The notes beneath the pieces are model-generated. The model searched no databases and had not been told where the DNA came from. It saw only the letters and a program-made list of their open reading frames with translations. Position numbers and translations under genes: made by a program. DNA of 64,000 nt from Natrinema gelatinilyticum. Lineage in GTDB: Archaea; Halobacteriota; Halobacteria; Halobacteriales; Natrialbaceae. Where the stretch lies: contig NZ_CP100756.1 of NCBI RefSeq assembly GCF_024266705.1, positions 2,046,001 through 2,110,000 on the forward strand. The letters are read 5' to 3'. Shown piece by piece: positions 33,944 through 38,380 of the stretch. Numbering within the stretch: position 1 is the stretch's first letter; every line of letters starts with the position of its first letter.

Positions 33944-34024
33944 CAACGGCCTGCTGTACCGATATACCGGTGCATCCGCAGGACGGTCGCGGTTGCACCG
34001 GCAATGACGCACAGTAGTCCGTAT
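33944..34024. repeat. Palindromic intergenic repeat, copy B
   Basis: 81 bases, same loop AGGACGGTC and inner stem as copy A, but with the outer arms exchanged (left arm type CTGCTGTACCGAT, right arm type ATGACGCACAGTAGTCC). Its last base is the first base of the aroA' stop codon (34024-34026, complement). It lies between the 3' ends of the CDF remnant and aroA'. Confidence 0.88.
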
Positions 34025-34818
34025 CAGACCTCGAGCGCCAACCCCGCCTCGGCGAGCGTCTCGTCGGCCGACAGGTCGTGGTGGACGACACCGGCGACCG
34101 CTCGCGCGATGGCTTCGGGGTCTTCGTGCTGGAAGATGGATCGCCCCATCGAGACACCGGCGCCGCCGGCATCCATCACGCCGCGGACCATCTCGATCGT
34201 CTGCCGATCGGATCCCTTCGAACCGCCGGCGATGACCACCGGGAGCCGAGTCGACTCGACGACGTGCCGGAAACTTTCGGCGTCGCCGCTGTAGCCCGTT
34301 TTGACGATGTCCGCGCCCAGTTCTTCGGCGAGTCGGACCGCGTGGCCGAGCGCCTCGGGATCCTCGGGATCGATGCCGGGCCCGCGGGCGTAGGCCATCG
34401 CCAGCACCGGCATCCCGAATCGCTCGGCCGTTTCCGTAACCTCCGAAAGTTGGGTGAGCTGATCGGGTTCGTGATCCGAACCGACGTTGATGTGGAACGA
34501 GACCGCGTCGGCGCCGACCCGAATCGCCTCTTCGACGGTGCCGGTCACTCGCTTGTCGTTCTCGTCGGGGCCAATCGTCGTCGAGCCGTTGAGATGGACG
34601 ATGTAGCCCTTACCGTTTTTGTTGTCGTGGACGCGTGGTGCGATCCCTTTCTGCGTGAGGACTGCGTCCGCGCCGCCGCTAGTGACGTCGTCGATGGTCG
34701 ATTCGATGTCTTTCAGCCCCTGGACGGCACCCATCGTGATGCCGTGGTCCATTGGGACGATCACGTACGATCCGTCTGTCCCGAGTCGCTCGAGTCGTGC
34801 GTCAATTCCGGTGGTCAT
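34024..34818 (-). CDS. aroA': 2-Amino-3,7-dideoxy-D-threo-hept-6-ulosonate synthase
   Basis: A 264-residue class I aldolase-type enzyme (DhnA/FbaB fold) that starts the archaeal shikimate route by condensing aspartate semialdehyde with a 6-deoxy-5-ketofructose phosphate. MDHGITMGAVQGL, SFHINVGSDHE, the Schiff-base Lys in ADIVKTGYSG (about residue 173) and VVIAGGSKGSDRQTIEMVRG support it. An ordinary class I fructose-bisphosphate aldolase is the alternative; the position 24 bases after trpA in the trp operon and the presence of aroB' favour the shikimate enzyme. Its stop codon touches palindromic repeat B. Confidence 0.88.
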   Translation of the reverse strand: MTTGIDARLERLGTDGSYVIVPMDHGITMGAVQGLKDIESTIDDVTSGGADAVLTQKGIAPRVHDNKNGKGYIVHLNGSTTIGPDENDKRVTGTVEEAIRVGADAVSFHINVGSDHEPDQLTQLSEVTETAERFGMPVLAMAYARGPGIDPEDPEALGHAVRLAEELGADIVKTGYSGDAESFRHVVESTRLPVVIAGGSKGSDRQTIEMVRGVMDAGGAGVSMGRSIFQHEDPEAIARAVAGVVHHDLSADETLAEAGLALEV

Positions 34819-34842: not shown

Positions 34843-35721
34843 TTATGGCTGTTCTGGTTCCGGTGCATCTTCAGCGTCGGCGTCGGCCTCGGTGTCGTCG
34901 ACTGCGCCGCGGCAAGCGCCGTGTTTGAGTTCCGTCGCCGTGGCCTCGAGTTCGGCGACCGCGCCGGCGGGGTCGTCGCTCGACGCGATGATGTCGACGA
35001 GCGCGCTGCCGACGATGACGCCGTCGGCGCCCGCCTCGACGATTTCGGCGGCGTGGTCACCTTTGCTCACGCCGAAGCCGACCGCCTTCGGGACGTCGTA
35101 CCCCGAGAGCCGCGCGAGGCTGTCGTGTGTCGCCGTCGAGACGTTCGCGCGCGCACCGGTCGTCCCGAGACGAGCCTGGACGTACGCGAATCCCGAAACC
35201 TGCGACATGATGGTCTCGAGGCGCTCGCCCTCGGTCGTCGGCGCGATGATGAAGACGAGATCGAGCCCGCGGTCGTCGCAGGCCTCGCGCAGCGGGTCCG
35301 CCTCCTCGGCGGGCAGGTCGGGGACGATAATCCCCGAGAGTCCGACTTCGGCGGCACGCTCGACGAACGGTCGAACGTCCGGCTCCGAACCGTACTGCAG
35401 GATCATATTGTAGTACGTCATAACCAGCAGCGGTGCGTCGGTCTCGAGTTCGTCGACCAACTCGAAAAAGCCCTGGGGGGTCGTACCGGCCTCGAGCGCG
35501 CGATTGATCGCCGCCTGGATCGTCGGCCCTTCGGCGATCGGTTCCGAAAACGGGAGCCCGAGTTCGATTAGATCGGAGCCGCCGCGGTCGAGGGCCTCGA
35601 CGTACGCCGTCGTGTCCTCGAGGGTCGGATCGCCCGCCGTGATGTAGGTGATCAGTGCGGGACGATTATCGCGGATCGCGGCTTCGACGTCGCTGTCGTA
35701 GTCGACCGAATCGTCGGTCAC
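34843..35721 (-). CDS. trpA: Tryptophan synthase alpha chain
   Basis: A 292-residue TIM barrel that cleaves indole-3-glycerol phosphate to indole and glyceraldehyde 3-phosphate. The catalytic Glu is in [20 protein letters not shown]; the catalytic Asp region is [10 protein letters not shown]. The barrel ends with [14 protein letters not shown] and [12 protein letters not shown], followed by an acidic tail. Start is GTG 35719-35721, overlapping the trpB TGA (GTGA), so translation is coupled. The longer open frame upstream is antisense to trpB's own frame and is not used. Confidence 0.96.
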
Positions 35722-37088
35722 CGGTCGAACACCTCGACGTCGGGTGCGGCCTCGAGATCGCGTTTTTCGGTCTCCTCGAGCACCGTCTCGAGGTCCTTGT
35801 CGCCGCGTCCCGAGACGGTGACGACAACGAGGTCGCCGAGTTCCTCGTGCGCCTCGTCTCGCGGGCTTCGCTCGCTCGACGTATCCGTGGCGATCCCCGC
35901 CGCGCACTCGAGATAGCCTAGTGCGTGACTCGACTCGAGTGCCGGGATGATGCCCTCGAGGCGGGAGAGCCGGTGGAAGCCGTTGACTGCGTCCTCGTCC
36001 TCGACGCTCACGGGAGTTACCCGGCCCGTCTCGACGAGGTGCGAGAGTTCGGGCCCGACGCCGGCGTAATCCAGCCCCGCGCTGACGCTGTGTGACTCCA
36101 CGATCTGGCCGTCCCCGCTCTGGAGGAGCTTCGTCATCGCACCGTGGAGGACGCCGTCGGTGCCCGTCGAGAGCGTCGCAGAGTTGGGCGCGAGACCCGC
36201 CTTTTCGTCGATCGAGAGGCTCGAGCCGCCGGCTTCGACGGCGTACAGCGCAACGTCTTCGTCTGGCGGACGCCGTCCGCTCGAGTCGTCAGCGAACCGT
36301 GGGCCCGCGCAGTCAGGAACGAACGCGTGAAAGGTGCCCATCGTGTTCGAGCCGCCGCCGGCGCAGGCGACGACGCTGTCGGGGAGCTGCCCCGCCTCCT
36401 CCTGTATTTGCTCGCGGATCTCCTCGCCGATGACGGACTGGAAGTCTCGGACCATCTTCGGGAAGGGGTGCGGGCCGACGACGGAGCCGATCACGTAGTG
36501 GGTTCGTTCGACGGTGGTCGCCCAGTCTCGCATCGTCTCGTTGATGGCCTCTTTCAGGGTTGCGCTGCCTGCATCGACTGGATTTACCTCGGCTCCGTTC
36601 ATCCGCATCCGATAGACGTTCGGTCGCTGGCGATTGACGTCAGTTCGGCCCATGTATATTTCACAGGGCATGTCGAGGTGGGCCGCGGCCATGGCCGTCG
36701 CGGTACCGTGTTGACCCGCACCGGTTTCGGCGATGATCCGCTCTTTGCCCATGTACTTCGCGAGCAGCACTTGCCCGAGCGCGTTGTTCAGTTTGTGCGC
36801 ACCGCCGTGGACGAGGTCTTCGCGCTTGAGATAGATTTCGCGGTCGTAGCGATCGCTCAGCCGGTCGGCGCGCTGTAGCGGCGTCGGCCGGCCGCCGAAG
36901 TCGTGCATTCGCTCGCGGAACTCGTCCATGAACCCGTCCTCGTTCTCGAGGACGAACCGTTCGTAGGCGGCTTCGAGTTCCTGCAGGGCTGGCATCAGCG
37001 CCTCCGGAACGTACTGACCACCGTAGTCACCGAACGTTCCCGTGCTCCCGGAACGTGATCCGCTCTCGTCGCGTTCGTCTGTGTTCAT
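35718..37088 (-). CDS. trpB: Tryptophan synthase beta chain
   Basis: A 456-residue PLP enzyme that joins indole and serine to make tryptophan. N-terminus [20 protein letters not shown] is typical of TrpB1. The PLP Lys is in [13 protein letters not shown] (about residue 99), the phosphate-binding loop is [11 protein letters not shown], and the ending [10 protein letters not shown] is characteristic. A 15-20 residue acidic insert ([13 protein letters not shown]) lies near residue 275. It is 25 bases after trpC and overlaps trpA by 4 bases. Confidence 0.97.
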
Positions 37089-37113: not shown

Positions 37114-37914
37114 TCATGTCGACTCGGTTTCCGCTGCGTCCGGTGATTCCGCTTGTGTGAGTCGCCGGGTGTTCTCGGTCACGTCGCTCTCGTCCGCACT
37201 GTGGTCCATGATGGCGCTGCCGACCAGCAACGCGTCGGCGCCGGCCTCGCGCATTCTGCGGACGTCCGCCGGCGACGACACCCCGCTCTCGGCGATCAGC
37301 GTCACGTCGTCCGGAGCGGCGGGAGCTACCGACTCGAAGGTTTCGAGGTCGACCTCGAGTTTCGCCAGGTCCCGGTTGTTCACCCCAACGAGCTCCGCGT
37401 CCGCGTCGAACGCGGCCTCGAGTTCGTCCCGGTCGTGTACTTCGACAAGCGGCTGGAACCCGCGGTCGCGTGCGGCTGCCACGAGCGCTGGCAGGTCGTC
37501 GACGAACCGCGCGATTAAGAGCAACAGGTCGGCCGCGACGACGTCCATCCCGGCCTCGTCCAGAACGAAGTCCTTGCGGAGGACGGGGACGTTCACGGCT
37601 TCCCGGACGCGGGTCAGCGCGTCGGGTGAGCCGCCGAAGTGGGTCGGCTCCGTGAGAACCGAAATCGCCGCCGCGCCGCCCTCGACCATCGCTTCGGCCA
37701 GTTCGACGGGATCGTCGGCTCGCGTTCCGTCGGCCGTCGGACTCGTCAGTTTCACCTCCGCGATCACCGGGACAAGCCCGTTCGCTTCCGCCCGTGCCAG
37801 CGCGTCGGGCAACGACCGTGCGTCGACGTCTACGACGCCGTCGCCGCCGGAGCGCTCTCGAGCGGCCGCGAGGATCGACTTCACTGCGGGCGCAAGCTCC
37901 GTTTCGGAGTTCAT
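37114..37914 (-). CDS. trpC: Indole-3-glycerol-phosphate synthase
   Basis: A 266-residue TIM barrel converting carboxyphenylamino-deoxyribulose phosphate to indole-3-glycerol phosphate. Motifs: [16 protein letters not shown] (catalytic Lys), [53 protein letters not shown] and [12 protein letters not shown]. The usual Ser in the KxxSP motif is a Thr (KLTSP has Thr before SP), as in other haloarchaea. First gene of trpC-trpB-trpA-aroA'. The promoter carries paired TGTACA boxes. Confidence 0.96.
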
Positions 37915-37917
37915 TAT

Positions 37918-37943
37918 TGTACATCGACGTACTCATATGTACA
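37918..37943 (-). promoter_or_regulatory. trp operon operator: two TGTACA boxes
   Basis: Hexamers TGTACA at 37918-37923 and 37938-37943, 20 bases apart start to start (about two helical turns), within a 7-base inverted repeat TGTACAT/ATGTACA. On the minus strand the distal box overlaps the TATA element (CTTATGT, 37941-37947) and the proximal box overlaps the predicted leaderless start of trpC (ATG 37912-37914). TGTACA is the known TRP box of Methanothermobacter TrpY. Confidence 0.65.
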
Positions 37944-38035
37944 TAAGGTTTGCGTCATCGTGATGGCGGAGACGGGAGACATCCGACGGTCCTGTTTCGG
38001 CGGGACGGTCGGTCGTCTGTCGGCGACCTCGCTGG

Positions 38036-38380
38036 CTAGTCGCTCCGTTCGGCTTCGAGGGCCTGGAGCGTGTCGTAGGCATCGACTGCGTACGTCATCG
38101 CGGGACCACCGCCCATCACCACGGCGATCTTCAGCGCGTCGACGATCTCGTCGTGGGTCGCACCGGCCTCGAGCGCCGCGTCCGTGTGCCAGAGGATACA
38201 GTGGTCACAGCAAGTGACGACGCCGATGGCGAGCGACATCAACTCTTTCGTCTTGTGATCGAGCGTCGTCGTCATTTCCGCTGTTTCGACGAACCCACTG
38301 AACCGTTTCAGCTCCGGCGCCTCGCTCGTCAGTTCGCCGAGCGTCTCCTTGAAATCGTCTAGTTCTTGTGATCGGGACAT
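38036..38380 (-). CDS. Carboxymuconolactone decarboxylase / AhpD-like protein
   Basis: A 114-residue all-helical protein of the CMD family. The AhpD redox motif is present: VVTCCDHCILWHTDAALEAG (Cys-x2-Cys with downstream His), then EIVDALKIAVVMGGGPAMTY. Such proteins act as trimeric disulfide reductases or peroxidases. Separate transcription unit 121 bases upstream of trpC's divergent region. Confidence 0.9.
   Translation of the reverse strand: MSRSQELDDFKETLGELTSEAPELKRFSGFVETAEMTTTLDHKTKELMSLAIGVVTCCDHCILWHTDAALEAGATHDEIVDALKIAVVMGGGPAMTYAVDAYDTLQALEAERSD

Follow-up and report, generated by a model that had tools for sequence, protein, structure and literature searches.

TGTACA repeats ahead of haloarchaeal trp genes: a probable TrpY switch site

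The TRP box of Methanothermobacter TrpY has the consensus TGTACA, and the trpY and trpE promoters of that genus overlap. To our knowledge, TrpY had previously been tied to TGTACA-type sites in one methanogen only. For haloarchaeal tryptophan synthesis, no direct regulator was found in the literature searched, where LrpA2 was merely suggested. Methanothermobacter trpY is autoregulated; haloarchaeal TrpY homologues had not been examined as of the same report (PMC6737238).

The Methanothermobacter TrpY/TRP-box system is a known one, and the haloarchaeal trp operator described here would be a further member. As in M. thermautotrophicus, TGTACA-type boxes cover a trp promoter, a trp operon is the target, and the genome encodes a TrpY-family protein in which a predicted helix-turn-helix (HTH) domain precedes an ACT domain. 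Unlike the Methanothermobacter locus, haloarchaeal trpY lies away from the trp operon and has no clear array of its own; an adjoining, autoregulated trpY is a feature of that locus, not of the protein family. Also unlike Methanothermobacter, two separate haloarchaeal operons are covered, and aroA' is included through the trpC operon. The strict 10-bp period of the boxes was measured in haloarchaea; Methanothermobacter spacing lies outside the comparison.

Two other archaeal regulators invite comparison. TK0271 (Tar) of Thermococcus kodakarensis likewise regulates aromatic amino acid operons, but it is a different protein and activates its three operons (PMC6737238). LrpA2 (Trh1) of Halobacterium salinarum is induced without aromatic amino acids, and hence was suggested as a regulator of the pathway; no direct target is named for it (PMC4162585), and the haloarchaeal trp boxes match those of TrpY instead. 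The proposed TrpY control names one protein, one operator, and exactly two target operons for haloarchaeal tryptophan synthesis.

The probable operator at trpC

The window (the whole stretch of Natrinema gelatinilyticum DNA analysed, 64,000 nucleotides) contains two TGTACA hexamers, at 37918-37923 and 37938-37943, whose starts are 20 bp apart. A first-pass annotation had placed this pair over the TATA element and the trpC start, and there it lies. That annotation did not include a third box, GTAC at 37929-37932, which occupies the exact midpoint of the pair, making three boxes with an exact 10-bp period. The 43 bases up to and including the trpC ATG, on the minus strand, read CGCAAACCTTATGTACATATGAGTACGTCGATGTACAATAATG. 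The gene order trpC-trpB-trpA-aroA', also given earlier, was confirmed with NCBIfam models, every gene scoring above its cut-off. All features are on the minus strand:

37942..37954, minus: BRE/TATA-like element CGCAAACCTTATG, which would serve as the promoter; family consensus CGCAAGYCTTATG; conserved together with the operator
37918..37943, minus: operator core TGTACA-N4-AGTACG-N4-TGTACA; three boxes, 10-bp period; conserved in 90/90 trpC upstream regions
37938..37943, minus: box 1 (TGTACA), overlapping the TATA-like CTTATG; averages 1.65 bits per base over 62 de-duplicated sequences
37929..37932, minus: box 2 (GTAC; GTnC in the family), 10 bp from each outer box; mean 1.47 bits per base
37918..37923, minus: box 3 (TGTACA), ending 3 bases before the trpC ATG
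37114..37914, minus: trpC, indole-3-glycerol phosphate synthase (NF041303, 416 bits); ATG at 37914-37912
35718..37088, minus: trpB, tryptophan synthase beta (TIGR00263, 574 bits)
34843..35721, minus: trpA, tryptophan synthase alpha (TIGR00262, 250 bits); GTG start, 4-bp overlap with trpB
34024..34818, minus: aroA', 2-amino-3,7-dideoxy-D-threo-hept-6-ulosonate synthase (ADH synthase; TIGR01949, 361 bits)

An AhpD-like gene of the carboxymuconolactone decarboxylase family (38036-38380), encoded on the minus strand as well, lies upstream of the trpC promoter.

When the 100 bp upstream of trpC were shuffled 20,000 times with dinucleotides preserved, the exact TGTACA pair never arose, and two or more TGTACA hexamers arose in 0.04% of the shuffles. 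The window holds seven TGTACA hexamers against 2.7 expected, and the five outside the trpC pair are scattered. Across the 5.4-Mb genome, TGTACA-N14-TGTACA occurs exactly once. Copies of the pair with a single mismatch (L002, L003, and L004) adjoin genes with no link to trp, and were read as chance.

Throughout the haloarchaeal order the element has changed very little. The 43-bp element stands at a fixed distance from the ATG, in the same register, in 90/90 trpC genes of the haloarchaeal order, with a weak match in one genome of family f3 (G002); its consensus in these genomes is CGCAAGYCTTATGTACAnATnMGTnCRTYRRTGTACAnTAATG. In the 62 sequences that remain once genomes with similar flanks are set aside, the element's mean is 1.35 bits per base, compared with 0.13 over the 60 bp upstream; the DNA around it shows no conservation. 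Seventeen further genomes gave the element upstream of trpC in 13 (again weak in family f3) and directly downstream of trpC in the other four (families f9 and f11), while a fifth f9 genome carries it at the start of trpB. The f9/f11 array (L211:50-75, L369-L372) is positioned as if it had been relocated together with trpBA. A strict pattern with one mismatch allowed matched in 74/99 genomes, and its reversed control in 0/99. The TGTACA repeats ahead of haloarchaeal trp genes are very probably a real switch site.

Two strict-pattern matches elsewhere were set aside as non-recurring: one upstream of a methyltransferase-like gene (G040:C16:56896), and one intragenic (G025:C30:88252). The G040 site (L208:1697-1722), operator-like with one mismatch and seen nowhere else, stands 19 bp ahead of its methyltransferase-like gene, which encodes 232 aa.

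TrpY and the second trp operon

A TrpY homologue, the protein for which the first-pass annotation had proposed a search, is indeed encoded in the genome (167 residues; NF053754, 237 bits against an NCBIfam cut-off of 180). Its gene (G000:C1:1525916-1526416) lies outside the window and not beside the trp operon. The family is present in 140/146 genomes of the order, and in 121/121 of the near-complete ones; in the phylum it exceeds the cut-off in 231/247. Being nearly universal there, its presence alone says little.

The Pfam ACT match of TrpY is below the gathering score only. The structure predicted for a close relative, with 35 aligned haloarchaeal proteins as input, has an HTH at the N-terminus and an ACT fold at the C-terminus (mean pLDDT 85.5, pTM 0.51). 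A structure search with this model ranks ACT domains at the top, and an AsnC-family structure appears weakly; no solved structure close in sequence to TrpY was found. The motif DRRV(V/I)(D/N) starts helix 55-67, the recognition helix of the HTH in the model, and the ACT fold follows.

No clear autoregulatory array was found at haloarchaeal trpY promoters. Much of family f1 has a single GTACAC there (L177-L193), which follows a TATTATAC-like element by a few bases and belongs to no array; it could reflect weak autoregulation.

TGTACA-type sites had also been anticipated at the other trp operon, and GTAC arrays are present there. The trpDFEG operon begins with trpD, and upstream of that gene 10-bp-period boxes of the GTAC type occur in 35/35 haloarchaeal genomes examined. 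Most have four boxes (TGTACGGATTTGTACATTRCAAGACRAAnnMGTACATTGGTG), and the distance of the array from the ATG hardly varies; the reduced family f2 gives the weakest match. In the genome of the window, boxes 2 and 3 read GGAC and AGAC. This array lies directly downstream of the TATA-like CTTAAG, so a protein bound to it would encounter polymerase rather than TBP.

How specific is the operator? A sequence-only model built from 38 trpC and trpD sites was searched genome-wide in nine genomes of the genus. The top match was trpC in 9/9 genomes, trpD was matched in 9/9, and almost nothing else was; in one of the nine, an unrelated site scores slightly above trpD. Detection of trpC and trpD is expected, since the model was built from such sites; the informative part is the near absence of other matches. 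By pattern search and model alike, the boxes are present at all trp operons and rare elsewhere. The first-pass annotation had put the first shikimate step under the same control. This holds through aroA', co-transcribed behind trpCBA; it does not extend further, as the model matched no other aro promoter or gene in the nine genomes. The link to the start of aromatic synthesis therefore runs through aroA' in the trpC operon.

In the window's genome, the model also matched a repeat element weakly. A repeated sequence, TGTACGTCTACGATGTTCACTGTACG, is found in many places and probably is part of a mobile element (G000:C1:18258, 2318871, 2688527, 3233638, and 3260318; C2:369576 and 385863); it matches the operator pattern weakly.

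Proposed repression by TrpY and its rivals

The trp boxes are probably read by TrpY, and the first-pass interpretation of a TrpY-type operator is supported. We consider it likely that the site is the operator of a haloarchaeal TrpY-family repressor (HTH plus ACT), repressing both trp operons when tryptophan is plentiful. TrpY as binder, tryptophan as ligand, and repression as outcome are inferred, whereas the site with its register and conservation, its confinement to the two trp operons, the presence and predicted fold of TrpY, and the agreement between helix type and array are observed. Tryptophan on the ACT domain would lead TrpY to bind the 10-bp-spaced GTAC boxes along one helix face. Bound at trpC, TrpY would cover TATA and the start and so keep TBP/TFB off; bound at trpDFEG, on the array just downstream of TATA, it would block polymerase. 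When tryptophan runs low, both operons would be freed, and aroA' with them through its place behind trpCBA.

Published expression data bear on this model. Without aromatic amino acids, H. salinarum induces all seven trp genes; OE1472F (aroA') rises 12.5-fold, whereas OE1475F, the next step, is unchanged (PMC4162585). A TrpY regulon of two operons would give just this pattern. If true, the model would explain why induction of the trp genes extends to the first step of aromatic synthesis but not to the second. Left unexplained is the induction of aroK, aroA, and aroC under the same conditions (PMC4162585). Moreover, a recent paper that cites Large et al. 2007 calls the Haloferax trpCBA promoter not tightly regulated (PMC13147458), which counts against TrpY repression. 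Also on that side are the TrpY homologue of T. kodakarensis, which does not control trp (PMC6737238), and the missing array at haloarchaeal trpY, given that Methanothermobacter trpY is autoregulated.

The same H. salinarum study found LrpA2 up 14.9-fold without aromatic amino acids (PMC4162585), which keeps a rival regulator in contention. The array might then be the operator of another protein, most plausibly one of the Lrp/AsnC type such as LrpA2, sensing aromatic amino acids. Lrp proteins likewise combine an HTH with an ACT-like domain, and the weak AsnC-family match in the TrpY fold search is in keeping with this. Nevertheless, we think this reading unlikely: the boxes are identical to the known TRP box of TrpY, the array is also present in methanogens, and the type of TrpY recognition helix tracks the array (see below).

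Less probable still is that TrpY binds but activates, or senses a ligand other than tryptophan, instead of repressing in a tryptophan-dependent way. Precedents come from Thermococcus, in which the aromatic regulator Tar is an activator and the T. kodakarensis TrpY homologue has no role in trp regulation (PMC6737238). But box 1 lies over TATA and box 3 nearly at the start, positions that suit occlusion, and both operons are induced without aromatic amino acids (PMC4162585). Finally, the element overlaps BRE/TATA and the start, which would be conserved in any leaderless promoter, so it could be an unusually well-kept core promoter whose GTAC boxes have no regulatory meaning. This we regard as very improbable. 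At trpD the same 10-bp period recurs, with the boxes placed differently with respect to TATA; in f9 and f11 the boxes lie downstream of trpC or ahead of trpB; and boxes accompany methanogen trp operons, yet occur almost nowhere else in the genome.

Box array and recognition helix across the phylum

Beyond the order, 39 genomes of the phylum were scanned over as much as 16 kb around trpD. Apart from families f21, f41, f24, and f26, 29 of 31 genomes have a 10-bp-period array upstream of a trp operon start (p<=0.02 by dinucleotide shuffles, a somewhat generous threshold where several starts were tested in one genome). One of the remaining two has a truncated start and an array elsewhere in the region; the other lacks trpE. 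Methanogens of the phylum share the same array at their trp operon starts. In f21, f41, and f24, TrpY is present, and the scan of the trpD region found no clear array; one f21 genome reached p=0.017 on a poor match, and a contig edge made one f21 start unscorable. Family f26 has no full-length TrpY, and the same scan found no array there.

Alignment of the proteins revealed a corresponding difference. In array-bearing lineages, DRRV(V/I)(D/N)(A/S/T)T starts the recognition helix; in f21, f41, and f24, TrpY has DR(K/N)V(V/I) followed by a hydrophobic residue. Helix type thus tracks array presence among the lineages aligned, a natural contrast for reading out TrpY specificity from recognition helix and operator. 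However, the array-negative proteins form a single clade with full support, so they amount to one evolutionary contrast rather than several independent ones, and the correlation may reflect a single evolutionary event.

On balance, we lean toward a more general model, in which TrpY and the 10-bp-period GTAC array would be the ancestral system of trp repression throughout the Halobacteriota, occluding TATA at one operon and polymerase or the start site at the other. In the clade of f21, f41, and f24, the helix would have changed from DRRVVD to DRKVV plus a hydrophobic residue, with the operator lost or re-coded.

The intergenic region beside trpY in genome G152 contains TGTATA-like stretches that form no significant array. 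An f24 genome (L357:9035-10361) has trpY adjoining trpC and divergent from it, an arrangement much as in Methanothermobacter save for the absence of TGTACA boxes.
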